Shown piece by piece: positions 15,811-61,312 of a stretch of DNA of 64,000 nt. Position 1 is the first letter of the stretch. Every line of letters begins with the position of its first letter. Below the pieces are notes generated by a model. It worked only from the letters and a program-made list of their open reading frames with translations. It was not told the DNA's origin and searched no databases. The DNA is from Liquidambar formosana (lineage: Eukaryota; Streptophyta; Magnoliopsida; Saxifragales; Altingiaceae), in the NCBI GenBank assembly GCA_039720395.1, contig CM077822.1:20543267-20607266 (forward strand). The letters are read 5' to 3'. The position numbers and the translations under genes were made by a program.

Positions 15811-15867
15811 CTCGGGTGACCGGTTCACCCAACCGGTCCAACTGGTTCACCCAACCAGCCACCCGAG
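15811..15867. promoter_or_regulatory. CTCGGGTGACC palindromic cluster, solo LTR
   Basis: Begins CTCGGGTGACCGGTT and ends with CACCCGAG. Between these are ACCGGTC and two GGTTCACCCAACC copies. It lies about 200 bp upstream of the LTR TATA box. Equivalent clusters occur in the other LTRs and in front of the antisense genes of C and D. Confidence 0.75.
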
Positions 15868-17720: not shown

Positions 17721-18215
17721 AATTTGCATATGGTAAGTGGTTCATGGTAAGTCTTGTGTGAATTGTTCTCTTCTCCCCCCTTTGGGTTATTCTCTTTACT
17801 TTGGACTGTAATTCTTAAGTTTCCATGTTTTCTAAAACTCCTTTTTAAATAAGAGTTCTATATCTTTTAGAATTCTACTTTTATTAAAATTCTGTTTTAT
17901 CTAGAGTTCTATCTCTTTTAGAATTCTACTTTTCTCAAACTTCTTTTTGAATTAGAGTTCTATCTCTTTTCAAATCCTATCTTTTCTTAAATTCCTTTTT
18001 TGGAAATCTTTCTTCTTTTAAAACTCTTCTTTTCTTTTAATAGAAACTTAAGGTTTATAGTTCATTGTAAAGGGAGTAACCCCTTCTCAATTGAACTACG
18101 TGGACTTTGATCTTTGCATCTTTGTATGCAAGGTACGTAGGCGCTCATTTGATGTTCAAGTCCGCCCTAGGATACTAAGTATCCTAGGTTTTCTTTTTCT
18201 TTTTCTTTTCTTTCT

Positions 18216-18420
18216 TTTATCCATTTGTCCATCACATATTTGTTAGTGGATAGGATGGATTTGTTTATTTATCCATTTGTCCATCACATATTTGTTAGTG
18301 GATAGGATGGACCCATGTTTACACGTTTATCCATCACATATTTGTTAGTGAATAGGATGGATTTGTTTGCTTATTCATTTACCCATCACATATTTGCTAG
18401 TGGATAGGATGGATTTGTTT
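18216..18420. repeat. Minisatellite in the LTR (CCATCACATATTTGTTAGTGG units)
   Basis: Four to five units of about 45-60 bp, each with CATCACATATTTG and AGTGGATAGGATGGA. Also present in both D LTRs (about 42805-42990 and 61825-62010). Confidence 0.8.
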
Positions 18421-34548: not shown

Positions 34549-37515
34549 TGTGAACCCCGGAAAACAGCCCACAAGGATTTGGCAAAAAGATAGGTGTGAA
34601 AGACAACAAACGAAAAGGAGTCGCCACTTCATTTTTTAGGGAAAAGAGGAACACCACAAAAAAGTTTTATTTTCAAAACCACATGACTCCATTAAAGGAA
34701 AAGCAAAGTCTTTGAAACCAGAAAATTGGGTTCGGGGGCTAAGTTACGACGTGGGAAGGTTCTGGGCAAAAGCCCATAGGCACCCACATCGCCCGAGTTG
34801 GTCTCTTAATTTGATTGGGCTAACTTAATATCTTTTTCACTCAAATATCATCACATATCATCACAAGGCAGCATGCATATCATATATTCCATCCAATCAT
34901 CCATGCATAACCAATTAAACAAAACAGAAAAAAAGAAGAAAAGAAAAGAAAAGCCTAGGATACTTGGATCCTAGAACGGACTTGAGCCTCACGAAGAGCG
35001 CCTACGTACCATGCAGCGAAATACATGGATCAAAGTCCACGTAGTTCGAAAAGAATAAGGTTACAACCTAATACAAACCTATGGTAAAAACCCTAGGTTT
35101 CCTCATTTGAAAATACTTTGATTTAGGCCAAAACGGAAAACTTCCATAAGAGGAAAACCTTGATAAAAACCAGAATTTATTATTGAAGGAAACCTTTGAT
35201 AATTACCATATGTCCATATTAAGAAGTAACCCTAGGAGGGAGAAGAGAAAAGAAAGAAAAAGAAAGGTGAATTGGGGCACCTTCAAATCCACTTACCTGA
35301 GCGCAATAGCTCCAAGCATTAGCCATTTCAGACCATAGCAGCCCTATTTGCAATAGGACAAGCATTGTACCTATCTGCACCCTTACAAGTGCACAAAACC
35401 ATGCAAAGAAAGCAATATGCAAATCTGGACAGAACCTTGACAAGGCCTAAAACCATCCATTTATCATGCAAATAACAAGAATAATGAATAACTAAGGACT
35501 CTAACTCAATCCTACATGCAATGACCTAACTAACATGCATAAAAACCTATGAAAGACACTCTAACAAGCATAAGAGACTCCAATAATATCAATAAACATG
35601 ATAACAAAGCCTATTCTAGCCAAAAGATGATATTTTATGTAAATTATGAAAATAGACCTTCCTACGGCGAGCTTTCTTAAGCAAAACTATCCTAGGATAA
35701 TTTCACGTAAAAAAGTCGTTATGAGGAGGTGCAATCATCATATCCTACTTAAAATATATACCCTAGAACACGACAGAAGTGATTTCATGCTTAAACACAT
35801 CACAGAAGGCTCTCATGCGAAAACCTACTCAACGAAAAGGATAATGTCTCCAAAAAACCTATAAAACTCACTACATGAATGCAAACCTAGCATGAATCAA
35901 CTATATGCAGCATATATAGAATGACTACGATGAGAAACTACTCAAAAAGCTAAGCTAAGCATGCTGTACGAAGCTTGTGCGAATTCAAGGTTATCGAAAC
36001 CCTAACTTCACAACCATGCATTAAAACCTATGAAACAACTCTGAGACATGCTCAAATTATCATGAATATCATTCATATAACATATATTAACTAACAGGAG
36101 CATCAACTCATGACAATTATCACAGCAACCTAAACATGTAAACTATGCATGATTTAAGAGGATAAAAAGAGTAATACTTTCAAATCCTTGGTAAACCAGG
36201 GATTATCAAGCATATAAAGCCATAAACTATCCTAAAATCATTCATATAACATCACACAAGCATTGAATTCAATCCACAAGAAGAGCAACTTCATGCACCA
36301 TAACTATCCTAGAAGAAGAAGAAGAAGGAGAAGAAGAGAACTCATGTTCAGCATTGAAGAAGAGTACTTACCTCTTGTAGACTCTTCCTTGTCTTCAAAC
36401 TTCTTGTTTCCTTGCTTGCTTGGGGTTGAAGAGCCTCCTCTTGATGTCCTTCTAGCTCTCCAAACTCGTAGCTCCCTCTCTCTCTAAGTGTAAAGTGCAA
36501 TTAACCTCCCCCTATGTGCTGAATATCATGTCCTTTATATAGAGAATTGACTCCCTAAACCAATGGCTAAGATTAATTCATTAAATAATGATCCTAGGGC
36601 TATTAGAGACTCTCTTGGTGCTCAAACAACTCAAACTTACACATTCCTAAGCTCAGACAAGTTGTATTGGCGGAGGAAACCGTTAAAAGAGGGAAAGAAG
36701 AGTCAGAATTTGAGTTGAGGAAGGAGTCTCTCGGGTGACCATCTAGGCCTGGACGGTTAGCCGTCTGGGCTTGGATGGCTGACCGTCCAGCCCCGGACGG
36801 TTACCCGAGGGTCCTCTATTTTTTCTCCGCTTTTGACTCCCACTTGCTGTAGTAGTCCTAAAATCTTCAAATTAAGTCCGATTTTGACGAAATAAAAGCC
36901 AAAACGACCGTGTTGCGAAGGGGAACACATTTTTAGGCATTTTAGGACAAAAATCCTTAACCATGGGTGCATGGTTAGGTTTTACAAAGGTGGTTAACTA
37001 TGGTGCCTCACCGTCGCTAAGCTGGGTTTGTACACAAGGTCGAACTAAATGCTTTCCCGATCGAAATTCGATCTTTCTAAACATGTTTAGGACATAAATA
37101 AAGCCCAATTTGAGTTAAATGAGATAAAATTGGTTGGATCTTATGAGTCAATTTGAGCAAACCAAGAAAGGGTCTTTTAGCCAACCCGAACCATTACGAG
37201 CCGAATTGATTTTAAACCATTAATTCATGAAATTGAACCTATATATAGACTCTATGTACTCATATGAACTCATGGGGATGACTCGGGATTCATTCCAAAG
37301 TCAAATGGAAAATATACGGCTTAAAAGACGATTATGCCCTTTAAGTCGCAAAAGTTCTTATTGACCATCGAGATGAACTCCAAATCACTTCAAAATTCAT
37401 ACACATGATATTCAATACCATAGAAACTCAATACAAAAGACTAGACTCAAAAAGGACTCAAAATCCTACATGAAATGATGTGTCCTAGCTAAGGTGACAA
37501 AAATGGGGTGTGACA
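34549..37515 (-). repeat. 3' LTR of element C (2967 bp)
   Basis: On the minus strand it begins TGTCACACCCC (37515) and ends GGGTTCACA (34549). TATA box TATATAAA is the complement of 36534-36541. It aligns along its length with the B LTR with many substitutions and small indels, so the two elements are from one family but not recent sisters. Confidence 0.92.
36730..36810. promoter_or_regulatory. Palindromic cluster, element C LTR
   Basis: Bounded by CTCGGGTGACC and GGTTACCCGAGG, with inner GGACGGTTAGCCGTC, GGCTGACCGTCC and CCCCGGACGG. About 190 bp upstream (in element orientation) of the TATA box. The inner half-site agrees with the antisense PMD promoter cluster of the same element (39066-39144). 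Confidence 0.75.
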
Positions 37516-39060: not shown

Positions 39061-39065
39061 GGGCT

Positions 39066-39174
39066 AGGGTGACCATCTGCCCTCAGATGGTCAACCGTCC
39101 AGGGCAAGATGGCTGACCGTCCAAGGTGGGACGGTTACCCGAGGCCTTCATCAAAAAATCTAGGTTTTATAAAA
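39066..39174 (+). promoter_or_regulatory. Antisense promoter of the PMD gene in element C
   Basis: A palindromic cluster at 39066-39144 (GGGTGACCATCTG, GATGGTCAACCGTCC, GGCTGACCGTCC, GGGACGGTTACCCGAGG) is followed after about 22 bp by a TATA box TTATAAAA (39167-39174), and the PMD ATG lies 271 bp downstream. The cluster resembles that of this element's own LTR. Confidence 0.7.
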
Positions 39175-39437: not shown

Positions 39438-42096
39438 ATGTCATCAAGCAAGGACTCAAGCACCAAGTATCCATTCTATGGGGTCAAAAGCAAGTACAAG
39501 GCACCACTCTATGATACTCCACAAGATAGGGTGTTGCTTGAACCCGACCAACATCTCTCATTCATCCATTCCCAACAAGAGGTATGTTTACCCAACTTAA
39601 CACTTTTCTTTTGAATCTTTTGATTCTTTTGATGAAATTGCATTCCCTTCTACTTCTTTTGAATACCCCTTGGGTTGTTGAGTGATATCCCTTGATTTGG
39701 CAAGGATTGAACACACAAATTCTTTTCATTTGAAAGCTTGAAAAATGGCACCCATCAAGTGTTTGATGAAATGCCCAAGTGAACTAAAGATGTTCAATCT
39801 CTACCAAATCAATGTATATCAACAAGTAAACACTCAAATGAGTAATATGCTATGATTTAGCAAGGATTGATCATGCAAAAATCTTTTGTTTCAAGGCTTG
39901 GGAAGTGCCACCCCCCAAGTGTTCGATAAAATGCCTAAGTGATAAAAAAGTGTTCAATCCTTGCCAAATTAAGGCATATGAACAAGCAAACTCACAAACA
40001 TCCATTAGCAATTCACTTCATGAATAAAAACAACTTTTTGACATCTTTTGGAAAACAATTTGAAACCAATTGCTAGTGCAAGCTTATTGTTTCTATGTTC
40101 TTTCAACTAACCCTCAAGGTATTTTCAATGGCTATAGCCCAATTTTCAGGACATGCGCACTAGGTCCTCTGTCAAAGGACTCATTGAATGGTGGCGAAAC
40201 ATGGAAAACTTCCTACCTATTGCCAAGGGCTATGTCGAAAAAACCGGTTTTGGTCCATTCCTCGACTCTTTGTGGAATGACCAATGTGATAGGCAAGCTT
40301 TACTAGCCTTGTCTGAGCTATGGTGGGACACCACCAATACATTCCATTTTGGCTTCGGGGAGATGACAATAACCCCAAGGATTTCACCATGATCATGGGC
40401 TTGAGCATTAAGGGCAAAAGCTTGGAGTTCTATGAAGAGGCTCACACGGATGAGGATTATCTCTTAGCTTACCTTGGGATGGAAGTTGAGGTAATCAAGA
40501 AAGCAGTGCGTCGCACTTGGCTTTTTAACAAGTTTGCTAAACAAAGGGAGAGCGAGGGTGCGAGCCCCGATTGTATTACAAGGGCATTCCTTCTGTATAT
40601 GATCTCATGCACATTCTTTGCCGACACGGGCGACCTAGCCCCTTTGGGTCTCCTTGCAAGCATGGAGGATGTTGACAAGATCAGGAAATTCAACTGGGGA
40701 GGGGCTGCTCTAGCCACCATGTATCGCACAATGTGTGACATGTCACGCGGTGTGACCAAGGATTTTGGCGGGATGCCCTTTGTTTAGGAGGTAATGCTAC
40801 TTCCCTTTCATTTCTTTTTATTTTTTCTTATATTATCTTTTCTTTTTGACTCTTTTCTCAACTTTTGACAGGTTTGGTGCTATGAGTACCTCAACCTATG
40901 TCGCCCATCCCTTACTGAGGAAACAATCGAATGGCCTACCCTCAAGAATTACTCCCCCACTTATGTGTCCATCCGGGGGCGAATCGTCATGATTACGCCT
41001 TTGCTAGAGCTCACCTAGCAAGCCTCACTGCTGATATGGTGAAATTCTTTCCCTATTTTTTCCTTTTCTTTTTACTCCCAATTTCTTATTTTGGATTTTT
41101 GAACAGATTGAATGGAATCCATGGAAGATATGGGTACCAATGCTACCCAAGCGATGCATTCCTAGCTTGATGTTGACTGGCAAGAGGGTGCTCTTGGAAG
41201 GTCCCGTGGGTAGGTACTGGTACCTAGGGGAGCGTGTCTTACGACAAGTCATGGGTGATGTGAATGCCGCTATGGCTCCAATGCCTCTACCATTTAACAT
41301 GAGGCATGCTAACTTGATGGAGGGGGAGGAGTTGTGGGATGCCCTGAGAGGCTGGGATGCGGAGGAGTTCACTTCTCCTAACATTGCATATGACATTTTC
41401 TGCCTCCAATACTTGATGAGGCCCAGGGTAACAGGCCTCCCTCCTCAGGGGGTAAGTTTTTGACGCTTTCTTAGCCTTTTATTTTGATAGAGACTCTATT
41501 TAATAGGTGAACACTTGCAGGGTCGACGACCACGAGGGCATAGCTCGACAGTGGGCTCAGGAGTGGTTCCCAGCTCTGAAGATGATGAGATGGAGGAGGA
41601 TAGGTCACTACCCTTGCCTCAACCTAATTGGTTCATTGATCTGTGCTGCAGGTCGGACTTTGTCAAGACCGCCATAACTCATCCTGCATTTGATGAATCC
41701 CCTAAGATCGACCCAAATCGAGAACAGGTGAGTTCTCTTTATGAGTATTTCTTTTCTTCTTTCGGCATTACCTTCAGTTTAACCTCATTGATTATCCTAG
41801 GTACCTGCGGCGTATGCCCAAGAGTTCATTGACCTGAGTGAGGGCTTGAGGCGTGACCTTATGAGGATGAGCCTAGCCAAATCCATGGCGGAAGCTCGTT
41901 TGGATGTCATGGTACGTGTTCAACCCACTATAAAGTTCCCATTTGTGGTTTTCAACCAACCTTATTCTCATACTTGACTTCTTTGCAATGGATTTTGTAT
42001 ATGCAGCCACCACCAGCAATGCGCCCTCCTAGAGCACCTCGTGGGGGTCGTGATGGAGCTGGGCCGAGCCGCAAAAGAAGCTCTGGGAACCGTTGA
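39438..42096 (+). pseudogene. Antisense plant mobile domain (PMD) gene of element C, seven exons
   Basis: Exons: 39438-39581, 40150-40790, 40872-41038, 41107-41451, 41521-41727, 41801-41911, 42007-42096; all GT-AG, phase 0 by comparison with element D. PMD signatures: ELWWDTTNTFHFGFGEMTIT, FTMIMGLSI, RRTWLFNKFA, RAFLLYMISCTFFADTGDLA, FNWGGAALATMYRTM, EWNPWKIWVPML, LEGPVGRYWYLGERV. The tail PSRKRSSGNR is basic. Breaks: a 1-nt deletion near 40378 (exon 2 is 641 bp), a TAG at 40785-40787 where D has TGG, and a 1-nt deletion in exon 3 near 40977 (167 versus 168 bp). Role unknown; PMD proteins of plants (MAIN/MAIL type) act in silencing and genome maintenance. It is not functional as it stands. 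Confidence 0.85.
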
Positions 42097-42291
42097 GTAC
42101 ATTTACTTTCTTGTTGGGCTTGTAGAAACAATGAGACAATGGCTATCTTTTTGCACTTCATGCTTGTGTTTTGTACTTGCCACCTAAAACCAAACTTTCT
42201 TATCCCTTATTATGGATACTTGTTGTGCTTGTTTGAATCTATCATGATGATGTTATGGTGCCTTTCTCATGAAAATTTGAGTCAATGTGAG
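42097..42291 (+). other. 3' flank of the element C PMD gene
   Basis: Less than 200 bp of AT-rich sequence between the PMD stop codon and element D. The last five bases GTGAG (42287-42291) are the presumed target duplication of D; the partner lies outside the window. Confidence 0.6.
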
Positions 42292-45200
42292 TGTGAACCA
42301 CGGGTTTCGATCCAGGGAGGAAGGAAAACCCTTCTTTTAAAAAGACTTGTAGAAATTTAAATTAATAAAAATCTGGTTTTCAAAAGGTTCACAAAAACAA
42401 AACAAATAAGGAGTCGCCACCTCATTTTTAGGAAAAGAGGAAAACCATAAAAAAAGGTTTTTAAAGAAAACCTTTGAAAACCAAACCTCATGACTCCGAT
42501 CAAGGAAAAGCAGGTCTAATCAAAACAAGAGAGGATTCGAAGACTAAGTTACGATGTGGGAAGGTTCTAGGAAACATCCTATAGGCACCCACATTGCCCC
42601 AAAATGGGTTTCTGAATTTATATGGGCTATTTCAATCACTTCCTAATTAGTCACCATGCATATGCAAAGAATAATCCATAAATAATCCACATTCATCCAT
42701 GAACATCCATAAAGCATATAAACATCCATAAAGCATGTAAACATCCATGAACAGATATGAGAGATATGGAAAGCAGTAGAGAGATAGAGAAAATGAACAA
42801 ACAAATCCATCCTATCCACTAGCAAATATGTGATGGATAAATGAGCAAGCAAACAAATCCATCCTATCCACTAACAAGTATGTGATGGATAAATGAGTAA
42901 GCAACAAATCCATCCTATCCACTAACAAATATGTGATGGATAAATGTATAAGCATGGGTCCATCCTATCCACTAACATATATGTGATGGACAAATGGGTA
43001 GAAAGAAGGAGAAAGAAAAAAGAAAACCTAGGATACTTAGTATCCTAGGGCGGACTTGAACATCAAATGAGCGCCTACGTACCTTACATACAAAGATGTA
43101 AGGATCAAAGTTCACGTAGTTCGATTGAGAAGGGGTTACTCCCTTTACAATGAACTATAAACCCTAAGTTTCCATTAAAAGAAAAGAAGAGTTTTAAAAG
43201 AAGAAGGATTTCCAAAAAAAGAATTTGAGAAAAGATAGAAGTTGAAAAGAGATAGAACTCTTATCCAAAAAGAAGTTTGAGAAAGATAGAATTCTAAAAG
43301 AGATAGAACTCTAATTAAAACCGAAGTTTGAAAAAAAGTAGAATTCTAAAAGAGATAGAACTCTAATTCAAAAAAGGAGTTTGAGAAAAGTAGAATTCTA
43401 AAAGAGATAGAACTCTAATTAAAACAGAATTTTGGGAGAGTTGGAAACTTAGGACTTCTAATTCAAAGTAAAGACAATAACCCAAGGGGGAGAAGAGAAC
43501 AATTCATACACAACTTACCATGAACCACTTACCATATGCAAATTATCCCGAAACATCGAGAAAACAACAATTAATCACCCCATGTATTCTATAGGGCAAT
43601 TATTAAGCTCAAACCATTCATATTCATGCTCAAATCATCATTAGAAGACCTAATTCAAATCTGGACAGAATACTAAACATGCATACAATGACCTAAAAAT
43701 CATGCAAATAATCCCGAAACATCGAGAAATCATCAATTAATCACCCTATGTATTCTATAAGGCAATTATTAAGCTCAAATCAACCATACTCATGCTCAAA
43801 TCATCATTAGGAGACCTAAAATCAAATCTGGACAGAATACTAAACATGCATATAATGACCTAAAAATCATGCAAATAACAAAAACCAAAAGAAAAACAAT
43901 ATCCTAATATGCTCCTATATGCTTTAAACACCCTAACATGCACAAAACTATCAAAAACATGCTAAATAGGCATTACCATGATGAAAATATCATATGACAA
44001 TCCTAAACATGAAAAGAAAATCTACCATGATGCCTTAGGTAAGTATTTTACGTAAGAATGTGAAATAACCATCCTTACGGCGAGCTTTCTTAAGTAAAAC
44101 TATCTGAAAATAATTTTACGTAGAAATCACTCCGTATGAATGGTTTCTTCACATATCCTACGTAAAATATATACCTAAGAATGCAAAGAAACTCACAGCA
44201 CACTTAAACACACTCTAGAAAGCACCCATGCACAGCCTCACCCTCTAAGAACGATAATTATCCTCGAAAAGGATAATCATCCATACACCTATGAAGACGA
44301 GGCTTACACAGCAAGTGTCCTATACAAAAGATGCTTAAAATCATGCATATAATTGAACCATGAAGAGAAAATGGCATAAACACATCAACTAATTTTTCAT
44401 GCAAAACGTACCTCTATCCTTAAGAGACAAACTATCCTAACAGCAAGCAATTCGCAATCCTAGTCCACTAACATGCATTCTCATCATATTTGAATCATAT
44501 ACACTCTAAAATATAGAGTATATATGATTCCTAAATCAATTCTAAGCCATAATTATGCAGAGAATGGAGTAGAAGAAGAAGGAATTGTAAAAGAAAGCAA
44601 AGGAGACTTACAATGAAGCAAGGGTCTTCGCTGCGTTCTTCCTTCTCTTTGGCTTGGTTCCCTTCTAGTTCCTCTTCGAAATTGCAGTAGAAAGCCTCCT
44701 CCAAGTGATATGAGTGTGTGCAAACTCGTGGTCCCTCTCTCTCTTATGAATATGAAGTGTCAAATAAGCTAAAAAGTCCTTTATGCTGATGAATGAGCCT
44801 CTATTTATAACCAACCAACCATATGAACCAATAGTTGAGATTAATTCACCATAAAATCAATCTAGGGCTGTGATTAAATCCCATGAATGTTAAACAACTC
44901 AAAACCCCCTCCCAATAGGCTTAGAAGTCCTTTAGAAGGCAGAAAATCGGAGTAGTAGAGTCCCATTTCGTCAAAAACTCAAAAAGAGAAAATTCAAGAT
45001 GGGACTCTCGGGTGACCGGTTGGGGTGAACCGGTCCAACCAGTTGGGCCCAACGGGTCACCCGAGAAGAATCCAAAAATTTTGGAATTCTAGCTCGATTT
45101 GGACTCCGAACTTCAAACGGACACAAATTCTTCATTTTAACTCCGATTTGAGTGATTCAAAAGCCAAAATTTCAAGGATTTAGTGTAGAATAAGCCTAGA

Positions 45201-45698
45201 ATATTCTTGAGCCAAGAATCCCTAACCACGGTCAAGTGGCTGGGTTTTCATGAGGCGATTACTCGAAAAAAGGTCAATTAAGCATAGGGTAATGTGGTGA
45301 ACCAATCCCAAACCTATCAATAAATTAAATTGGCACTTCAATTAGACTCATTTCATCATTCTAAGGCCAATGGAACACTCCGGAGAAAATTTGGAAGTCA
45401 ATTGGAAAATATACGAAGTAAAAGACGAAATTGCCCTTCAAGTCGCAAAAGTTCTAATTAGCTATCCAAACCTATCTGGAATTGAACCAAATTTGACACA
45501 CATATCTAAAATGATCCTAGAAACTAAATGCAAGTGATGGGACTCAACAAAGAGACAAAAACATGCATGCAATGATGACCTATTCTCCTAAGGCTTAAAA
45601 GGGCAAAATTGTCCTTTAAGGCTTAGGGACTCCTAGATGCTTCTAAACCTATCCAAATACTATCATGATCTCATGGGGGTGAAAATGGGGTGTCTACA
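42292..45698 (-). repeat. 3' LTR of element D (3407 bp)
   Basis: On the minus strand TGTAGACACCCC (45698) to GGTTCACA (42292). TATA box TTATAAATAG (complement of 44811-44820). Contains the minisatellite (42805-42990), AGAGATAGAACTCTAATT-type tandem repeats (43205-43430), a perfect 23-bp palindrome (43027-43049) and the AAAGCTCGCCGTAAGG block (about 44040-44170). Same family as the solo LTR at 15177-18910. Confidence 0.94.
45007..45065. promoter_or_regulatory. Palindromic cluster, element D LTR
   Basis: Bounded by CTCGGGTGACCGGTT and GGGTCACCCGAG with inner GAACCGGTCCAACC and GTTGGGCCCAAC. About 190 bp upstream (element orientation) of the LTR TATA box. The right-hand LTR copy lies beyond the window. 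Confidence 0.78.
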
Positions 45699-45713
45699 GA
45701 TGCCCCTCATTGG
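45699..45713 (-). other. Polypurine tract of element D
   Basis: On the minus strand CCAATGAGGGGCATC abuts the LTR start TGTAGACACC. Confidence 0.87.
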
Positions 45714-47202
45714 TGGAGTTTGCTTCGCAAGCGACACCAATGTTAAAAAAGACAGCCCATTTTCACAAGAAAATGGCAAAGAACCAAGGCTTTGAACTTC
45801 AACAGTAACTACTGAGGATGTTCATGACCGCTATAATGCACACTTGTACAAAATAGGGGGGGTTGTGTGTGACTCGAAAGTCATTTAAACACACGGTACT
45901 CTCATATGCCTATTCTTGCTAATAGGAACACATATGCTTCTATAATGTATGCTCATTCTTTATAATGAGGACACGCACAAGATAGGGGGCGTGTGTGACC
46001 ACAAGGATCATTTAAACACACTATACTTTCATACGCTCACCTCACTGGATGAGAGACCTCGTATGCTTCCATAATGTACGCTCACCTCACTGGATGAGAG
46101 ACCTCGCACAAAATAGGGGGCGTGTGTGACCACAAGGGTCATTTAAACACACTATGCTTTTCATACGCTCACCTCACTGGATGAGAGACCTCGTATGCTT
46201 CCATAATGTACGCTCACCTCACTGGATGAGAGACCTCGCACAAAATAGGGGGCGTGTGTAACCACAAGGGTCATTTAAACACACTATGCTTACTAAACAA
46301 AATCATGAAACTTTAATTTTAACAACTTTGTTAAAATCAAGTGAGGGCAATCCATTCATTGTGCTACAATTTCCTCAAGAAATAAATAGCAATGCAAAGC
46401 AATCCATGTATGTGACTCAAAGAGTCATTTAAACATACTATCACAAACACTTCTATCCAAGCAATAACAAGCTTTATTTTAACAATCTTTGTTAAAATTA
46501 AGCGGAGCAAATATTCCAAATGTACTATAATTTCCTCAAGAAATTAATAGCAATGCAAGATAATCCATGTATGTGACTCAAAGAGTCATTTAAACATACT
46601 TCCAAAACTAACTCCAATCAAGCAATCATAGGCTTTATTTTAACAATCTTTGTTAAAATTAAGCAAGGCACACACTCTAATGATGCTATAATCTCCTCAA
46701 GAAATTAATAGCAATGTCAATTCACGACAAAGAATCAAGAAATAACAATTTCATGATCCTTACAAAGCATCTCAAGCATCCAATCAACTCAACATCCAAT
46801 CAACAAAGCTTTATTTTAATCCGAGGATTAAAAATAAGCAAGAACATTCAATTAATCCCAACGTGCTATAATTTCCTCAAGAAATAAATAGCAATAGCAA
46901 TTCAATCACAAGAAATCAAGGAATGTAAAATTCCATGGTTCCAAACAAATATCATAAGCATCATCCTTCCATCATCCAAAGATAAAGCCTTTCAACAAGG
47001 TAATTGTCAAAGTGGGCTTGCAAATATCACCATGAGTGCACTAATAATTCAATTAGTGACTAATCACTATTCATTTCATTCATTTCAAATCATTCACATC
47101 AGGTTCTAGGCCTTTCAAGAGAGATTTCATCGAAAAATCAAGCGAAAAAGGGGCCCGGTTAAGCGAAATTGTGTGAAAAATGCACAAAACGAGAAATGGG
47201 CT
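45714..47202. repeat. Tandem-repeat region of element D
   Basis: Two arrays. At about 45886-46290 there are three units of 125-131 bp with CTCACCTCACTGGATGAGAG (twice per unit) and GGGGGCGTGTGTGACCACAA. At about 46310-46890 there are four units of about 160-180 bp with TTTAACAATCTTTGTTAAAA, CCTCAAGAAATTAATAGCAA and TGACTCAAAGAGTCATTTAA, the latter containing the palindrome TGACTC..GAGTCA. No gene. Same position relative to the polypurine tract as in element C but unrelated in sequence. Confidence 0.82.
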
Positions 47203-47310
47203 TGGGGGACCGGTTGGACCGGTTTGTGAACCGGTTGGACCGGTTGGGGCCAACCGGTCACCCGAGAGCAATTTTTCTGCTACACTTTTTTGGGTGTTTT
47301 GGCTATAAAG
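47203..47310 (+). promoter_or_regulatory. Antisense promoter of the PMD gene in element D
   Basis: Cluster 47203-47267 (GGGGGACCGGTTGGACCGG, GTGAACCGGTTGGACCGG, CCAACCGGTCACCCGAG), then CTATAAAG at 47303-47310, 36 bp further on, and the ATG 245 bp after that. The ACCGGTTGGACCGGTT core is the form found in this element's LTR and DUF7745-like promoter, not the CCGTCC form of element C. Confidence 0.75.
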
Positions 47311-47554
47311 CCTTGCACCTTCCTCATTTGTTCATCATCCTTTTGCTTATTTTTGAGAGCTTCTCTCTCTAGAAACCCAAAACCCAACATTCCCAACTCC
47401 AAAATACCAAAACTTTGGCATTAAAATTGAATCATTGTGGTGATTAAACACCAACAACATCACTTTCAAGGAATCAAAACAACCTTTGATTCATCAAATC
47501 ATCCTTCCCAACTTACTTTTTCAAATCAAACCCATTTTTTCAAGAACACCCAAC

Positions 47555-50500
47555 ATGAGTTCTTCATCAAATAAATACTCCGATGCAAAATATCCACATC
47601 ATTTCCTCAAGAAAACATACAAAGCACCTCATTATGAAGATCAACCGGATAGCTTGCTCTTGGAACCCAACAATCATCTCTCCTACATCCATTCCATGAA
47701 TGAGGTAAGATAATTCCCAACTCCTTCAAGTTCATTCTTATTCTTTCATTTCATTGTTTCTTTTCAAATATTTGCTATTCTCATGAATGAAATGCATTGA
47801 GTTCTTGCTATTTTGACAACTTTTGGGAGTTTTCCATATACAAAGACCTCATTTTCCAACATAGGCATAACTATGCCCACCAAGTGTTTGATAAAATTCC
47901 CAAGAGAATAAAATCATTCTTTTTGCTTTCAAATGGTCAAGATAATCAAAAGTGAACTCAAGAGCACTCTCTAGAATGCCAACCCATGAATTTTGAAGTT
48001 CTTTTCTTTACAAAAAACCTTGTAGGCATAACTATGCCCACTAAGTGTTTGATAAAATTCCCAAGAGAATAAAATCATTCTTTTTCTTTTCAAATGCTCA
48101 AGGTTCTTGCACAAACTATCAAAGATATTTTCCAAGGAGTTTACCCCATGAGTTTAAAAAACGTTTTTCTTCACAAAAATCATGTGGGCATAACTATGCC
48201 TACTAAGTGTTTGATAAAATTCTCAAGAGAATAAAATCATTCTTTTTCTTTTCAAATACTCCAAGTTCTTAAACAAAACATCAAAGGTATTCTCCAAGGA
48301 GTTTACCCATGAGTTTAAAAAACATTTTTCTTCAAAAAAACATGTGGGCATAGCTATACGCCTCAAGTGTTTGATAAAATTCTCAAGAGAATAAAATCAT
48401 TCCTTTTCTTTTTCAAATACTCCAAATTCTTAAACAAAACATCAAAGGTATTCTCTAAGAGGTTTACCCATGAGTTTAAAAACATTTTTCTTTACAAAAA
48501 TCATGTGGGCATAACTATGCCTACCAAATGTTTGATAAAATTCTCAAGAGAATAAAATCATTCATTTTCTTTTCAAATGCTCAAAGTTCTTAAGCAAAAC
48601 ATCAAAGGTATTCTCTAGGAAGTTTACCCATGAGTTTTAAAAAAACATCTTTCTTTTCAAAAACATGTGGGCATAGCTATACGCCTCAAATATTTGATAA
48701 AATTCTCAAGAGAATAAAATCATTCCTTTTTTTTTTCAAATATTTTAACCAACCCAAGGAAAACTCATGGGTATTCTCTTTGAATGCTATCCTCTGATTT
48801 TTGAAACACTTTCCTTTGCAAAAACTTTCTTTTCACATGTGTAAACTTTTGAAAATCTTGAAAAACCATGAATTTAAACATTCTTGAGTTATTCATTAAG
48901 CATAGCAAATACTCAAAATAACAATTTCCATGATTTCCTTTATTCTTTGTAGCCAAATTTCGAAGATAGAACGAGGCACGCTCTTGAAGGAGTGATTGAG
49001 TGGTGGCGCAAAATGGCTACACGGCAGCCCGAAACCCAAAAGATCATAATTAATGCGGGTTTTGGAGATTTTCTGAATGCTTTATGGGTGGAGCAGAGGG
49101 ATAGACAAGCTTTGCTAGCCCTCATTGAGTTGTGGTGGGACACCACCAACACTTTTCACTTTAGTTTCGGGGAAATGACTCTTACCCCAACAGACTTTAC
49201 TGTTATCACAGGACTTCGCCTAGGTGGGCGGAGATTATCTTATTATGATAATGCTCACGGGGATCCCTATTATCTCCTGGAACAACTCGGGACCATGGTT
49301 CCTGTTCAAAGGGGTGGAGTACGCCGAACTTGGCTAAAGATTCATTTTGGCGATCAAAGAGAAGAGGATGACGCGAATCCATCTTGTCTTGCCCGAGCAT
49401 TTATGCTATATATGTTGTCTAGCATATTCTTTGCTAGCTCTGGTGATGTTGCTCCTTTAGGACATCTTGCTTGCATGGAGGACGTTTGGGGGATAGGCGA
49501 TTACAACTGGGGTAACGCCGCTCTTGCTGTACTGTATAGGTCTATGAGCAACAGATCGCGTGGAGTGAGCACAAACCACTGTGGGATGTCCTTTATCTGG
49601 GAGGTAAATTAACCCACAAATTTCCTTTCTAATAATATTTGCAATGAGTACACATTATCACTTTCTTTTGAAATTCATTTTCTCTTTTGAAAACAGATTT
49701 GGTACTACGAGTATTTGGGGTTTGAGCGTCCCCCCCTCATTGACAATGATCTTTCATGGCCTGTGATGTCCAATTATCACATCGACAACAGGTGTGACTC
49801 GGTGGATAATAAACACGACTATGCCCATGCCAGGGCATTCCTAGCTTGCATTACTGCTGACAAGGTAATCCCTAAAACTTTTATCTTTTGAATTCTATCT
49901 TCTTTCAATTCTTTCTCTTAACACCAACTCATGAATTAGGTGGACTGGGATCCATGGGCACAATGGAAATATGCCCTTGAGGAGCAATGCCACAGATGTG
50001 TAGACATGACAGAGAAGCGGATCCTCCTAGAAGGTCCTATGGGTCGCTACTGGTACCTCGGGGAGCGAGTTTGGCGCCAAGTAAAAGGCAACATCAATGC
50101 AGCTGCAGTTCCTATGGCGCCACCTGAAGGCATGAGACATGCCAACTCCTTGCAGGGGCGCGAATTGATCAAAGCTATACGAGGCAAGGAGGCGATTGAC
50201 TTCATAGTTCCGAATGGGAACTACGAGAGTTTCTGTAGGAGGTATCTGATGCCTCCTAGGGCCGTAGGAGTTCCGCCCGTAGGGGTAAGTACATACTCAA
50301 CCCTATGCATGCTTTGCAAGTGTTTCCTAGCTGACTGTGTGCAACTCTTTTCAGGGACGGCGAGCTCGTGGTCACCACTCCACAGTGGGTTCGACCTCGG
50401 GCACGTCAGGGGTGCATATGGATAGTGATGATGAGGGCATGGATAGGGATGCACTGCCCCCTTTGCCACGGCCTAGGTGGTCCATTGATTTGTGCCAAGG

Positions 50501-50977
50501 AGGCGACATCGTGCCCATAACTATAGCACCTCCCGTGATGGACGAGGTTCCTCAGATAGATCCTAGATATGAGACTGTAAGTTTCAAGGTTGACTTGATT
50601 CTCTTAATCCCCAACTATTCGTTAGACACTTCTTACCCAATTTCTCTTTTCACAGACACCCGCCGAGTATTCACAAGAATGGATCAATCTCAATGCCAGC
50701 TTGAGGAGGGACATGATGAGGATGAGCCTAAACCTATCAAGGCAAGAGGCATATAGAGCGGGCGAACACTCGCACCCAGTAAGAATAGCTCAAATCAAAA
50801 ACTTTTGAAAATCTTTGGTTTTCTCTTTTAAAAAGTGGTACTCACATCATCTATTTTCTTGGAAACTTGCAGATTGATTCCTTCCCTCAGTACAACCCAG
50901 CCGCGGCTCCGCCACCTCCTCCATCATTAGACGAAGCAGGGCCAAGCAAGAGAAGGAAACCACGAAGGAAGCGTTGA
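47555..50977 (+). CDS. Antisense plant mobile domain (PMD) protein of element D, seven exons, intact
   Basis: Exons 47555-47704, 48953-49603, 49697-49864, 49940-50284, 50355-50576, 50656-50778, 50873-50977: 150, 651, 168, 345, 222, 123 and 105 bp. All are multiples of three, all introns are phase 0 and GT-AG, giving 587 aa without a stop. PMD signatures: VIEWWRKMA (about residue 64), LIELWWDTTNTFHFSFGEMT (about 96-115), VITGLRLGG, RRTWLKIHFG, RAFMLYMLSSIFFASSGDVA, YNWGNAALAVLYRSM, DPWAQWKYAL, LEGPMGRYWYLGERVWRQV. The tail SKRRKPRRKR looks like a nuclear localisation signal. Intron 1 (1248 bp) holds a tandem array. Length fits PMD proteins of the MAIN/MAIL type, which act in chromatin silencing; its job here is unknown. 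It is transcribed against gag-pol, so its introns are not removed from the genomic RNA. Confidence 0.87.
47860..48790. repeat. 160-bp tandem array in intron 1 of the element D PMD gene
   Basis: Six units with GTGGGCATAACTATGCC, AAGTGTTTGATAAAATTC, CAAGAGAATAAAATCATTC and TTTACCCATGAGTTTAAAAA, starting near 47863, 48026, 48185, 48344, 48505 and 48669. Alternating units differ (ACTATGCC versus GCTATACG), suggesting dimer-wise amplification. Confidence 0.85.
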
Positions 50978-51267
50978 AGACACTTATTTTAAGTTTAGGA
51001 AACTCAATTTAAGCATCTAGAAACTCTTAACTTGTGAAATCCTTGTACTAAGCCTATGTGGGCATTTATGTTATCTTTCAAGTTCTTTCTTTTAAAACCA
51101 AGTTCATGCATTCCCCACCTTTGAATTATGATATCTATCTCTTGTTGGTTGAATCTCATGACTCTTGACTCAAATTTGAGTCAATTTAGGCTCAAAATGG
51201 TCAAAATTGGCCTTCCGGAGCATACGGGGGTCAAAAATGGTCAAAACCGAGAAATGGGGAAAACGGC

Positions 51268-51420
51268 CTCGGGTGACCGGTTGGGCCCAACCGGTTGGAC
51301 CGGTTGGCCTCAACCGGTCTCCCGAGCGCTTTTGCTGTTTACGCGTTTTGCGACTTTTTTGACGCTTTTTCGACTTCTAATCCTTCTAGGACTCAAATTT
51401 GAGCCTAAAGGCCTATAAAA
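51268..51420 (+). promoter_or_regulatory. Antisense promoter of the DUF7745-like gene in element D
   Basis: Cluster 51268-51326 (CTCGGGTGACCGGTTGGG, CCAACCGGTTGGACCGG, CTCAACCGGTCTCCCGAG) followed 87 bp later by TATAAAA at 51414-51420; the ATG is 56 bp downstream of the TATA start. The flanks also contain repeated GGTCAAAA words at 51210-51245. Confidence 0.75.
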
Positions 51421-51469: not shown

Positions 51470-52735
51470 ATGGAGACTTTTGATAGCTTTTTGACACTTT
51501 GCTTCAGCAACATGAGTAAGGAAGACAAAAGGGTTTTTAAGAGTTATGGCTTGGACGCGCTCTATTCCCTTACCAAAGTCAAGGTAAATTGGACTATGCT
51601 CTATGCTTCTATATACTTTTGGGATCCCGAGCTTCATGTTTTCCGTTTCCATCACAATGAAATTTGCCCCACCCATGAGGAATTTTGCGCGCTGTTCGGA
51701 GTGCAACCGTCAGGGCCCTTCATCCTTCCATACCTTCGACAAGGTTATGTTTCTTCTTTTGCTTCTCTTTTGGAAATCTCTACCCACGATGCAATGGCCT
51801 TCATAAAAGATAACATGATAGATTTGAACAAGCTAGCAACATCTTTCCTGCCCCTTGGGAGGTCATGCGGGCTGCCTTTGTCTCGACCGCGTCAGCACGC
51901 CTTAGCTTTTTGCTTGATTGGGCGATTTCTCATCACCAATGGTATGTTGTTTGTCCCAATTGAAATTTGTGAGCTTGTAACTCCTCTTTCTAAGTCCCAA
52001 AACATAATTCCAATGGTTCTAGCGGAAACTCTCAATGGGCTAGACAAGGTACAGGATCGGTTTGAGGCGAACTTTGAGGGCAGCCCTCTCCTTCTTCATA
52101 TGTGGTTGCTAGAGAGGTTAAACCTCTTATCATCTCCTCGTGTTGCAAATTATGGGCCTCAGCACTTCCGTCTGCGTGTTCCTGAATTCCCGTCAGATGC
52201 TTCTCCTGACGAATGGCTTAGCATGCTGTACCACACCTCATGGCGATCTATCTGTTGGCACGTGCCTCACTGGAAGTGTGACGAAAAGGTGCTCTTGCGA
52301 ACTGTGGGCTGTACACTGATCAAGTTGATGGGCTTGAAAGCGACTTCTTTTTACTGGCCATCTCGAATCCTTCGGCAATTTGGTGCAGTTCAAACAATTC
52401 CAAACAACCAAGCGAGCACCATTCAGACAAATTCAAGGCAAGTTCACCCCGTTCAACCTGTTTCTCAATCTCTAGTCAAATGGATGGAAGATAGATGGAA
52501 TAGCTGGAACTCCGCTACCTTAGTACCAAACACTAGTGGTCCTTATGAGCTTAGCAAGGAATACAAGAAGTGGTTATCTGAAGACATTGGCCACAAAGAA
52601 ACAACAATGAGGGCTCAAGTAGCTGAGTTGATTGGGATTCCTTCACTGGGGAGTACAAAGAGATCAAGGGAGGATGACACCAAAGTGAACAAGACTACTG
52701 GAACAAAGAAGACTTCTCAGAGAGCAAGGAATTAG
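51470..52735 (+). CDS. Antisense 421-aa protein of element D, DUF7745-like, intact
   Basis: Single-exon open frame with its own TATA box 56 bp upstream. I do not know its function. The N-terminal half has VNWTMLYASIYFWDPELHVF, CPTHEEFCALFGVQPSG and HALAFCLIGRFLI, a pattern I associate with the plant DUF7745 domain found in repeat-associated proteins. WLLERLNLLSS and WRSICWHVPHW follow, and the C-terminal 70 residues are hydrophilic and basic (KRSREDD, KKTSQRARN). It lies between pol and the PMD gene, antisense to pol. No stop or frameshift interrupts it, unlike the five stops in gag-pol. Alternatives: a diverged PMD-related protein. It could be a DNA-binding or silencing-related factor, but this is inference. 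Confidence 0.75.
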   Translation: METFDSFLTLCFSNMSKEDKRVFKSYGLDALYSLTKVKVNWTMLYASIYFWDPELHVFRFHHNEICPTHEEFCALFGVQPSGPFILPYLRQGYVSSFASLLEISTHDAMAFIKDNMIDLNKLATSFLPLGRSCGLPLSRPRQHALAFCLIGRFLITNGMLFVPIEICELVTPLSKSQNIIPMVLAETLNGLDKVQDRFEANFEGSPLLLHMWLLERLNLLSSPRVANYGPQHFRLRVPEFPSDASPDEWLSMLYHTSWRSICWHVPHWKCDEKVLLRTVGCTLIKLMGLKATSFYWPSRILRQFGAVQTIPNNQASTIQTNSRQVHPVQPVSQSLVKWMEDRWNSWNSATLVPNTSGPYELSKEYKKWLSEDIGHKETTMRAQVAELIGIPSLGSTKRSREDDTKVNKTTGTKKTSQRARN

Positions 52736-53120: not shown

Positions 53121-56100
53121 TTACACATGGTATCTCTTGAGTTGATCTAAATTGGTTGGTTGAGAGAACTCTATTCCATCCAAATCCATCAATCGAACTG
53201 CTCCTCCTGGAAATATCTCCTTTATGATGTAGGGACCGCCCCAGTTAGGCCTGAACTTGCCCCTTAGATCAAAAATAGGCGCGCGGATTTCTTTCAGCAC
53301 TATGTCTCCATCTTTTAAGCCACGATCCTTGACACGCTTGTTGAAAGCTCTAGCTATTCTGCGCTGATAGCCTTGAACATGGTATAGGGCATTTAAACGC
53401 CTTTCATCAAGCAGAACTAGCTCATCATATCTGTTTCTTACCCACTCTACTTCTGACAACTGATCTTCCGCCATTACTCTGAGAGAAGGGATTTCTAACT
53501 CGATTGGGAGAACTGCTTCCATGCCATAAACCAACGAGTACGGTGTAGCACCTGTGGAAGATCTGATTGAAGTGCGATAACCCCATAAGACGAGTGGCAA
53601 CCTTTCTGACCAGTCATTGTACTTCTTAGCCGACTTCTGTAGCATGTTCTTTACATTCTTGTTAGCTGCTTCAACTGCTCCATTTGTCTGCGGCCTATAA
53701 GGGGAAGACTTGTGAACTCGGATGCTGTACTTCTATAAGATCTCTTCTACTTCGCCTCGGAAGTGTTGTCCATTATCTGATATGATCTCATGTGGAACCC
53801 CATACCGACAAATGATGTGGGTCTTAATGAAATGGGCCACTTGCTTTGACCCCAAGGTTTTGTAGGACTTCGCCTCTACCCACTTAGTGAAGTAATCTAT
53901 TGCCACCAAGATAAACTCATGACCTTCCTTTGACTTAGGATGGATCTTTCCAATGATATCTATTCCCCAAGTTGAAAAGGGCCAAGGGGATGACATAGTA
54001 TTCAAAGACATTGATGGAAGGTGTTGAACATTGGCAAAGATTTGACAGTTATGGCACTTCTTGACATGCAGATGACAATCTCTTTCCATGGTGGTCCAAT
54101 AGTAACCGAGACGAGCAATCTTCTTAGCTAGCATATAACCATTCATGTGGGGTGCCCCTGCTCCTTCATGTACCTCTTCAATTATTCTTTGAGCTTCTTC
54201 CTCTGTCACACAGAGTAAGTGGATGCCGTCGTAGGATCGTCTGTATAACTTTCCTCCGCACATGATGTAGTGGGTAGCCAATCTTCTCAGCGTATGCCTG
54301 TCTACTTTCGAAGCTCCTTCAGGATATTCCCTTTTCTCTACGAATCTCTAGATGTCATAGAACCACAGATGCCCATCTGTTACTTGACTATTCTGAACAC
54401 TGCAGCAGTACACTGGCTCTTTTCTTCTTTCAATCATGAGTGGATGAACATTTCCGCCTTTTGGGATTTCCACCATGGATGCCAGTGTAGTAAGAGCGTC
54501 AGCAAAGTGGTTTTTTACCCTTGACAAGTAGTGGAACTCTATTTTGTCGAATTCTTTGGTAAGTGCTTCTAGATAAGCATGATAGGGTAACAACTTCTCG
54601 TCTCGAGTCTTCCATTCCCCTTTGATTTGGCAGATAATCAAGGCTGAGTCTCCGTACACTTCTAATTCCTCAACTCCCAACTCTAAGGCTGCTTCCAACC
54701 CTAGGATGCAAGCTTCATATTCGGTGATGTTGTTTGTGGCCTCGAACCCTAACTTCATTGCCAGAGGGGTGTGGGCGTCATCAGGAGAAATCAACAAGAC
54801 TCCAATGCTGAAGCCCCTTCTATTTGCAGCGCCGTCGAAGTAGACTTTCCATGGCTTCTTTTCTATCTCCAATATGTCCTCGTCGGGGAACCCTTGTTCG
54901 ATGCCATCTCCTTCTGAAACTGGATTCTCGGTTAAATGTTCTGAAATGACTCTCCTTTTTATCGAGCTTTGTACCACATACTTGATATCGAATTCAGATA
55001 ACAACATCAACCACCGCGCAGTACGATAAGTCAACATTGGCTTTTCAAGCAGATATTTGAGTGGATCCATACGGCTAACGAGGAACACCTGCAAAGATAG
55101 CATGTAATGGCGGAGTTTTTGAGAAGCCCACACCAATGCCACGCAAGTCTTTTCCACAGCGTTGTAGTTCACCTCATAGTCTGTCATTTTCTTACTTAGA
55201 TAGTAGATGGCATTCTCTTTCCTTGACTCTTCCAAGTATTGTGCAAGCATTGCCCCCATAGCAGTTTCTGTGACGGTTAAGTACAGCAACAACGGCTCCC
55301 CTTCTCTAGGTGGAACCAGTATCGGTGGATTGCTTAAGTAGCGTTTAATGGCTTCAAAAGCATTCTGGCATTCCTCGTTCCATTCTTTTGGTTCTCCTTT
55401 CTTTAGTAACTTGAAAACAGGCTCACAAATGGTAGTGAGTTGGGCTATGAATCGGCTTATGTACTGCAATCTTCCTAGGAAACCTCGGATTTCCTTCTCA
55501 TTCTTGGGCGGCAGCATCTCCAGAATGGCCTTGATCTTGCTTGGATCCACTTCAATTCCCCTCTGTGTTATCATGAAACCTAGCAACTTTCACGTAGTGA
55601 CTCCGAAAGCACATTTTTGAGGGTTGAGGCGAAGCTTGTACTTTATGATTCGATCGAAGAACTTTCTGAGCACAGCTACATGTCCTTCCCTATCTTTTGA
55701 CTTGACAATCATGTCATCGATGTAAACCTCGACCTCTTTGTGTATCATGTCATGCAACAAGGTGGTAGCAGCTCTCTGATAAGTCGCCCCTGCATTCTTT
55801 AACCCGAACGGCATTACTTTGTAACAATAGGTCCCCCACTGAGTGATGAAGGACGTTTTCTCCATATCTTCTGGTGCCATCTTGATCTGATTGTAACCTG
55901 AGAAACCATCCATGAAAGAAAGAAGAGAGTGCCCTGCGGTACTATCAACTAACACGTCAATGTGTGGTAGTGGAAAGTCATCCTTAGGGCATGCCTTATT
56001 CAAATCACGAAAGTCTACACACATACGCACTCTGCCATCCTTCTTTGGAACTGGTACTATATTTGCAAGCCATTTAGGGTACTCCACAACCTTAAGGAAC

Positions 56101-56517
56101 TTAGCTTCTATCTGCTTGATCACCTCTTCTTTTATCTTCAACGCCCACTCAGGCTTCATTCTCCTTAACTTCTGCTTGACAGGCTTCATGTCAGGATTAG
56201 TCGGAATGTGATGCTGCACTATGTCTGTGTCTACTCCGGGCATATCTTCATAAGACCAGGCGAATGCTTTAAGATTCTCTCTCAACAACTCAACCAATTG
56301 CTCTTTTTCAAAAGGGGAAAGTGTTGTACCAATTTTAATTATTTTTGGCAATTCATTCGTCCCTAGATTAATTGATTCTAGTTCTTCTGCAATTGGTTGT
56401 GCTATCCCTTTATTCCTTTGCTCAATGAGCTCGGGAGGGATATCAACGTCTCTAAGGTCTATTTCCATGCCACACACATTAAGAGACAAGAAGGCGCGAA
56501 GACAAGGAATGTAATCT
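53121..56517 (-). pseudogene. pol of element D: RT, two RNase H domains, integrase; in one frame with three stops
   Basis: Second exon of gag-pro-pol, entering after the intron with a one-base join. RT: MCVDFRDLN, SFMDGFSGYNQIKM, catalytic YIDDMIVKS (about 55720). The first, Ty3-type RNase H (YLSKKMTDYEVNYNAVEKTC) is degenerate. A second RNase H follows: VYFDGAANRRG, ITEYEACILGLEAAL, YGDSALI, FADALTTLA, the dual arrangement typical of Tat elements. Integrase: HVKKCHNCQ, WGIDIIGKI, IISDNGQHF and the Glu-containing AVEAANKNV, then a C-terminal GKFRPNWGGPYIIKE. In-frame stops: TGA 55590-55592, TAG 54348-54350, TAG 53733-53735. No frameshift over 3.4 kb. Not functional as written. Confidence 0.93.
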
Positions 56518-56665
56518 CTGCGAGAAAATAAAGAAAGTACCAATCACTAATTGAAGACTCTGAAATAACAAAACAATACTTACGACAACTCTAAATGACT
56601 CAACAAATGAAATACTTAAACAAAGACAGATTGTTTGCTGACTCGAGACTCAAAAGAAAACCTAC
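56518..56665 (-). other. Predicted intron between gag-pro and pol, element D (148 bp)
   Basis: Minus strand: donor GTAGGTT at 56665, acceptor TCTCGCAG ending at 56518. The exon before ends in phase 2 and the exon after starts with one base (A), then GAT TAC ATT, so splicing removes the gag-pro TAG and joins the frames. Same donor heptamer as in element B. Confidence 0.77.
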
Positions 56666-59600: not shown

Positions 59601-60492
59601 TGAATTCCCTGCACACATCTTCCCATGTTCTAGTCTTTGACTCATCCAAACTTAGAAACCAATGCAGCGATGAAGTGCTAAGTGATTCATGGAATAATTG
59701 GGCCATTAACTCCTCGGAAGCACCACGAGGTTGCATTGCTCGGATATACATTTTCAAGTGAGTCTTAGGGCAACCCGTTCCATCAAACTTCTGTAACTCT
59801 AGCATCTTGAATGAAGTCGGCAATCTCGCTTGAGGGAAGAGAGAAAGAGTGTGGATATCCACAAAATCATCAGCACGGCGAATACCCTTCAAAGTTTTCT
59901 CCAAAGCCAACATCCTTGCAGCCATCATCTTTTGGTCATCACTCATAGGAGGATTTTCAGTGGTGGGGATGAAAGTGGATGATTGGGTGTAAATGGGGAT
60001 GTTTTGTAGTGGAGGTTGAGTATGTGGAAGTGGTGGATTTTGAGGTGATGATTGAGTATGTGGGAGTGGTGGATTTTGGGCTTGGCCTCCAACTTGGGCA
60101 AATGGGTTGGATTGATTTTGGACAATGGGGACTTGAGTGTCAGGTATGGCCTGATCTGTAGGAATGTTGTGGATAAGGACAGGAGTTCGATTGTTGATCT
60201 CTTGTGCCATTCTTATCGCGGTTTCAGACTTCACTGACACCTCTTCCAATTTCCCGAATATATCATTCAATAACCTCTCAATTCTTCGCGGATCCGCGGG
60301 AGTCCCAGAAACAGATGTCCCCTTAGGTGTAGCCGGATTATTCAATGCAAAAGTCTTATCCATGGCGAGGTCTTGTTCAGTATTTCCTCTGATCAAACGG
60401 CCTGAAGAGTCACGAGTCCAAGCCAGCACTCTATTACATCCAAATGACCCGTACTTAGTTACAAAGTGACACAAAGCGCCTTTTGTCTCCAC
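56666..60492 (-). pseudogene. gag-pro of element D, one frame with two stops
   Basis: Starts METKGALCHF at 60492. A proline-rich linker with repeated NPPLPHTQ-type units (about residue 135-170) is followed by capsid motifs LSLFPQARLPTSFKMLEL, KFDGTGCPKTHLKMYIRAM, WEDVCREFTDHYKYNTEVD, RRDLETTKQ. Two knuckle-like CHFHQSKGHITDRC and CLYHRKSGHDTEDC motifs come next. Duplicated CATGWGNPWEDEQPTEKS-type units lie at about 58240-58360. The aspartic protease has VLIDNGSALNVCPL and FNLLLGRPWIH. In-frame stops: TGA 59443-59445 and TAA 58054-58056; no frameshift. It ends at the intron donor at 56665. Extra sequence after the protease (ELIPLDFSPHGNLHV, FFPGMGMG, PTLNGCFVKEGEDF) is shared with element B. 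Confidence 0.92.
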
Positions 60493-61309: not shown

Positions 61310-61312
61310 GAC

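Follow-up and report, generated by a model that had tools for sequence, protein, structure and literature searches.

Lineage-specific dyad arrays at the long terminal repeat and antisense promoters of Tat-type retrotransposons, and their possible recognition by an element-encoded protein

Two described systems lie nearest to the subject of this study, the promoters of Tat-type long terminal repeat (LTR) retrotransposons in a 64,000-nucleotide stretch of Liquidambar formosana DNA (assembly GCA_039720395.1, contig CM077822.1, positions 20,543,267 to 20,607,266; hereafter the window): VANC of the Arabidopsis VANDAL elements is the near precedent for the mechanism, and the antisense proteins of Retand elements are that for the element type. 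VANDALs are Mutator-like DNA transposons. According to the available text of the central report, VANC is encoded by the element, diverges faster than the transposition enzyme and, in the case of VANC21 and VANC6, binds family-specific short motifs repeated in noncoding regions and triggers methylation loss on its own family (PMC5735166). RNA-directed DNA methylation (RdDM) counters this effect, as the accessible text of a second paper has it (PMC10398659), and the available part of a meeting note touches on co-evolution and on a structure of VANC21 that was unpublished (PMC8756742). Retand elements are Ty3/gypsy retrotransposons whose antisense TRP28 genes separate pol from the 3' LTR; for these genes DNA binding is predicted and a regulatory role proposed, the available text naming no binding sites (PMC11963269); antisense genes of plant LTR retrotransposons are well known, as the accessible text of another paper indicates (PMC7264820). 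The initial annotation of this DNA had supposed that nothing comparable was described, which is too strong in view of these precedents. Literature searches, with subscription papers and preprints mostly outside their coverage, found no description of the arrangement reported below and no paper joining DUF1985 with the plant mobile domain (PMD), whereas two papers mention both PMD and VANC; a search on DUF7745 and retrotransposons from 2024 on gave none with DUF7745 among the matches listed.

The window element at the centre of our analysis, element D, has the make-up of a Tat-clade Ty3/gypsy element: besides two LTRs it contains a reverse transcriptase (RT), an integrase and a second RNase H-like domain. 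Its antisense open reading frames lie between pol and the 3' LTR, as in Retand. These antisense genes, which adjoin gag-pol and are separate from the transposition enzyme, belong to the PMD and DUF7745 families, unlike TRP28, which was compared by description. As with VANC, the proteins are encoded by the element and diverge faster than the transposition enzyme, a family-specific short motif is repeated in noncoding regions, and one predicted fold matches a VANC21 structure. In contrast to VANC, the carrier has LTRs, RT, RNase H and an integrase domain, there are two related antisense genes, the motifs are dyads grouped in TATA-anchored modules at the LTR and antisense promoters, and DUF1985 scores below its cut-off. 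Because of the element type and the DUF1985 scores, the system is not classed as a VANC member, though it is VANC-like as far as tested. Retroviruses of the human T-cell leukaemia virus (HTLV) type likewise carry, in their 3' terminal part, an antisense gene with proposed regulatory roles, its proteins being unrelated to those considered here; we know of no lineage-specific dyad arrays in that group. The parallel with HTLV-type antisense genes is named in the available text on Retand (PMC11963269). PMD itself is described as a domain of unknown function, found in plant retrotransposons and host silencing factors, in the accessible parts of two papers (PMC8616336, PMC9289625). We consider, with a probability of roughly two in three, that in each lineage of this Tat-type group an antisense-encoded protein with a VANC-like fold recognises the dyads arrayed at the LTR and antisense promoters of its own element.

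Promoter modules of the window and their frame

All seven palindromic clusters that had been reported in the window are present, 57-80 bp long; their positions had been given to within two bases, three of them being off by one or two. In element D, the module of the 3' LTR lies at 45007..45065 (reverse strand, two dyads), with the TATA box TATAAATA 197 bp below it (44802..44809, reverse strand). The module of the antisense PMD promoter occupies 47201..47266 (forward strand), ahead of a TATAAAG box at 47304..47310 (forward strand), and that of the antisense DUF7745-like (DUF) promoter 51268..51326 (forward strand, two dyads), ahead of a TATA box at 51414..51419 (forward strand). These three modules are of class D, as is the one in a D-family LTR at 15811..15867 (forward strand; TATA at 16065). 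Class C modules, with three dyads each, are found in the LTR of element C (36730..36809, reverse strand; TATA-like box 36534-36541), at its antisense PMD promoter (39064..39143, forward strand; TATA-like box 39168-39173) and in the LTR of element B (27015..27094, forward strand; TATA-like box 27282-27289). The core assignments of the initial annotation were correct at all seven places, and so was its claim that each module lies upstream of a TATA-like box.

In a dyad, a half-site of 7 bp and its reverse complement flank a spacer, which is mostly 6 bp long (shorter in some D modules). Two or three successive dyads make a module, with a start-to-start distance of 22 bp (classes C and E) or 23 bp (class D), and their number differs among copies of one class. 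A tally of parsed dyads showed that, with few exceptions, the half-site is mostly ACCGGTT in class D, RCCRTCY, that is (A/G)CC(G/A)TC(C/T), in class C and RCCRCCY, that is (A/G)CC(G/A)CC(C/T), in class E. In the window, a pattern scan found dyads of these classes confined to the seven modules.

The modules are far more frequent than chance patterns. Our results cover one genome (718 Mb, 370 contigs), four core classes, 11 multi-promoter elements plus two elements of a fourth lineage, and one protein model. The outer frame CTCGGGT...ACCCGAG occurs at 6,002 genome places against 36 for the reversed control, and the exact frame CGGGTRACC...GGTYACCCG at 565 against 1 when the pattern is reversed. 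In the window, allowing each side at most one mismatch gives 5 pairs of 9-bp frames, where every one of 10 Markov nulls gives 0, and allowing at most two gives 14, partly overlapping, where the nulls give 1-3; CTCGGGTGACC has 17 matches at up to two mismatches, a count reached by none of 100 shuffles (mean 5.4). The D LTR module of the window recurred at 40 scored genome places with 96-100% identity over 88-92 bp. Judged by eye in 50 distinct places from each frame search, a non-random sample taken first along the contigs, the core classes are three: D, C and E. A pattern scan of prokaryote contigs gave bacterial and archaeal hits among the matches listed, judged to be chance without further test, and a search of plasmids gave nothing.

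TATA spacing was scanned at 31 sites. From module to TATA box, the distance is 187-198 bp at LTR promoters and 87-89 bp at DUF promoters, across classes in both cases; at PMD promoters it is 36-37 bp in class D, and 24-25 bp in class C and at three of the four class E sites. One exception is L033, whose divergent PMD site has TATATA, at 168 bp, as its sole box; the LTR sites of L034, L035 and L036 gave no distance, as the analysed stretch stops ahead of any TATA. A weak TATA, TTTAAAC, serves as the box in L025 and at three PMD promoters of class E. Since the distance is kept per promoter type across classes, module position tracks the promoter type and the core tracks the lineage.

Core class within elements and between lineages

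Two or three promoters could be assigned in 11 elements: four of class D (in the window, L034, L035 and L036), two of class C (in the window, and L025 with L030) and five of class E (L016 with L029, L017 with L032, L018, L015, and L012 with L033), the assignment to a single element resting in L018, L015 and L012 on spacing and orientation. At all 28 assigned sites the core class agrees with that of the element. Where LTR and PMD sites were both assigned, they agree in 9 of 9 elements (permutation P 0.0009, copies within a class being related). The correlation of cores among promoters of one element, proposed initially from the window alone, therefore extends to all 11. Two C-class PMD modules contain one E-like match apiece, and both L012 modules are degenerate, with two matches each. 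DUF places found by protein search rather than by motif have a module in the expected position in all eight inspected of 102; by eye, seven are class E and one is class C, the L161 module being without one side.

LTR modules with no usable antisense promoter were found at L001-L008, L009, L011, L013, L014, L019, L020, L021, L022, L023, L024, L026, L027 and L028 and in the E-class LTR of L010. In L027 a PMD piece is present, and neither a PMD nor a DUF module was found there. In L009, L011 and L022, LTR modules of two classes occur at a distance of 1.5-2.7 kb, one of each class per locus; as the module flanks match different LTR families, these are probably neighbouring LTRs. In L018, one E-class LTR, with gag on one side and PMD on the other, seems to be shared by two successive elements, as 3' LTR of the first and 5' LTR of the second, in the manner of a tandem recombinant. 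In an E sub-family (L155, L156, L158), tandem repeats around ATATATTCAA precede the DUF promoters and replace the apparent PMD gene end of other copies; the PMD gene may have been lost or relocated here.

We compared the homologous LTR, PMD and DUF modules of a C element (L025/L030) and an E element (L016/L029). The two classes are closely related, and their promoter flanks are about 70-75% identical. Half-site position 5 differs in 16 of 16 half-sites (LTR 6, PMD 6, DUF 4): the class E element has the base C at every one, the class C element T at 15 and A at one. No half-site differs at position 2 or 6. Positions 1, 3, 4 and 7 differ in 6, 2, 3 and 3 of 16, respectively; elsewhere, 21 of 48 spacer bases, 5 of 10 linker bases and 7 of 48 outer-frame bases differ. 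At a flank divergence of 0.28 the 16/16 change has P 1.4e-9, a value to be read with the position picked post hoc and with half-sites that are dependent if modules were copied. A nesting of class C within class E was considered and dropped, the trees leaving the order of the C/E split unresolved.

Module copying is itself a possible explanation: concerted evolution by gene conversion, template switching or duplication would spread modules within an element without any matched factor. Within a class, the spacers of LTR and DUF modules do agree (in C and E alike, the best matches are 6 and 5 of 6 bases), which suggests module copying between these two promoters. PMD modules, in contrast, share the half-sites without sharing the spacers, only 2-5 of 6 bases agreeing with those of LTR and DUF; the sequences hardly suggest copying in this case, and because of the spacer mismatch the six PMD half-sites most likely acquired the new base by separate substitutions. 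The promoter-specific TATA distances and the invariance of positions 2 and 6 in spite of the flank divergence also speak against copying, which we regard as unlikely to account for the pattern.

A fourth lineage of this group, represented by L010 with L031 and by L162, provides the independent test in further relatives that the initial annotation had called for, and the two elements inspected agree with its prediction. Its proteins are 61-67% (integrase), 25-32% (DUF) and 27-32% (PMD) identical to those of D, C and E. The initial annotation had described the outer bounds of the module as fixed; the frame is not universal, since no CTCGGGT module was found near the integrase, DUF and PMD genes of L010/L031 and L162. 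These elements carry instead one unrelated core, TGCGTACGCA, at the LTR and beside both antisense genes. With at most one mismatch allowed, L010/L031 has 23 copies within 16.5 kb (null mean 0.175, maximum 2 in 200); L162 has 28 within 7.6 kb. In both elements the arrays lie within the LTR above the TATA box and also just upstream of the DUF gene, and two array regions upstream of the detected PMD exon are candidate promoter arrays (10588-10990 and 11640-11722 in joined L010/L031; 1604-1787 and 2486-2588 in L162). Genome-wide, TGCGTACGCA pairs number 7,986 against 0 for the control; none occurs in the 64-kb window. TGCGTACGCA palindromes are also present away from promoters in the inspected loci.

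The spacing of these sites is regular. In L162, 20 of 22 gaps below 60 bp measure 20 or 21 bp, and among the matches listed genome-wide 41 of 50 pairs are spaced by 19-21 bp, although 15-45 bp was permitted. A few of the L162 spacers recur, as copying would have it; over 20 spacers, a mean of only 3.9 of 10 bases agree, which argues against it. Palindromes could alternatively act as DNA or RNA structures, small-RNA sources or repressor targets rather than as sites for an element protein. The modules are palindromic overall, and VANC targets overlap RdDM targets in the available text of one study (PMC10398659). Base pairing, however, needs neither an identical base change in 16 of 16 half-sites of three promoters nor a 20-21 bp phasing of separate 10-mers, and we hold this explanation to be very improbable.

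The modules might also be bound by a transcription factor of the host or by one of its PMD complexes, of the MAIN/MAIL1 type, different lineages using different host factors. MAIN and MAIL1 are PMD proteins whose dependent genes in Arabidopsis share a promoter motif, the DOWN motif, tied to expression in the accessible text of the reports (PMC7156037, PMC9899485). They are host genes, unlike those here, and the motif printed there, CATGCAGTTT, is absent from the modules (7 window matches at up to one mismatch against 6.6 expected, 0 in modules). Moreover, four cores, namely three ACC-sharing variants and TGCGTACGCA, coexist in one genome, and the class tracks the element at every assigned promoter. 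A host factor thus appears improbable.

The antisense proteins and the proposed recognition

The DUF7745-like frame of element D (51470..52735, forward strand) is stop-free over 421 amino acids and passes both Pfam cut-offs, for PMD (67.1 against 34.9 bits) and for DUF7745 (PF24924; 51.1 against 26). Its predicted fold matches the VANC21-DNA structure 9lnj. The PMD coding exon of D, antisense to gag-pol, lies at 48992..49612 (forward strand; PF10536, 84.7 against 34.9 bits). Some PMD proteins have weak DUF1985 matches; the best score among 7 proteins was 30.0 bits for a cut-off of 35.1, and genome-wide none of 83 matches was above the cut-off (150 of 916 candidates scored). Foldseek gave no significant match against the PDB and viral models, and profile searches of PDB sequences returned nothing judged relevant. 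An earlier model of the structure, built on 9 sequences, was of too low a quality for use (predicted local distance difference test score, pLDDT, 40.9).

Between one C and one E element, identity is 90-93% in pol/integrase, 73% in the DUF protein and 60-70% in the PMD protein: the antisense proteins diverge faster. Lineage-specific arrays, together with a protein predicted to resemble a DNA-binding anti-silencing protein of transposons, suggest that each lineage recognises its own copies. At least one of the two antisense products that each lineage carries, PMD or DUF7745-like, would be a sequence-specific DNA-binding protein with a VANC-like fold. It would sit on dyad arrays about two helical turns apart, probably as side-by-side dimers. 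With arrays at the LTR promoter and at both antisense promoters, it would act both on the gene that encodes it and on the element as a whole; its own supply would depend on itself, since the antisense promoters carry sites too. A drift in specificity would oblige all sites to follow, which would leave one core per lineage.

By analogy to VANC21, silencing marks are most likely removed, or transcription activated, at the arrays; the demethylation by VANC21 and VANC6 and its counteraction by RdDM favour anti-silencing or activation over repression. The element-encoded, DNA-binding autoregulator that the initial annotation proposed is supported as to the factor, by the predicted VANC21-like fold and the weak DUF1985 matches; its binding to the sites is a prediction, and the effect may be autoregulation, anti-silencing or repression. 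Our confidence in this reading and in the broader idea given below was lowered slightly by in-frame stops and by the provisional placing of the PMD promoter in the fourth lineage.

If recognition by an element-encoded protein is correct, self-recognising anti-silencing, known from one group of DNA transposons, would reach LTR retrotransposons as well, and four natural protein/site sets would become available for studying how specificity changes. For PMD, the VANC-like fold and the exact lineage-specific arrays offer a testable role and ready DNA targets. A broader idea, which we put forward tentatively and at somewhat less than even odds, is that PMD, DUF7745 and DUF1985/VANC form one fast-evolving DNA-binding superfamily, a private address code of giant LTR retrotransposons in which each lineage's protein reads solely the dyad arrays of its own LTR and antisense promoters and in which proteins and sites co-evolve, with the host silencing factors MAIN and MAIL1 as domesticated readers.

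In the databases, a Tasmannia lanceolata protein of the same family is labelled serine/threonine-protein phosphatase 7 long form homolog, yet it matches PMD and DUF7745. Fragments of this plant retrotransposon protein also occur in records named Modestobacter lapidis and Geminicoccus harenae, probably because the bacterial assemblies are contaminated.

Further features of the window

The 3' LTR of element D spans 42290..45699 (reverse strand, ends approximate). Its 5' LTR (61310..64000, reverse strand) is truncated by the window end, its own module being expected just beyond, and the two are 98.6% identical over 2,692 bp. The gag-pol region (53121..60492, reverse strand) contains integrase zinc-binding, RNase H, RVT_3, RT and G-patch domains, RVT_3 being the second RNase H-like domain; the gag was assigned because its DNA resembles the gag frame found in element B. 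The zinc-binding domain of the integrase was detected, and the rve domain scored 29.6 bits, under its cut-off of 32.6.

Element C has its PMD coding exon at 40320..40787 (forward strand, 50.8 bits) and seems to be interrupted near 42.3 kb, as the D LTR starts there. For the D-family LTR at 15177-18911, a same-strand partner LTR is absent from the window. In the class D PMD gene, the start and the main exon are separated by a probable intron that contains tandem units of about 160 bp (47862-48742), and a fragment with a Mutator-like element (MULE) transposase domain adjoins the elements at 25168-25890.

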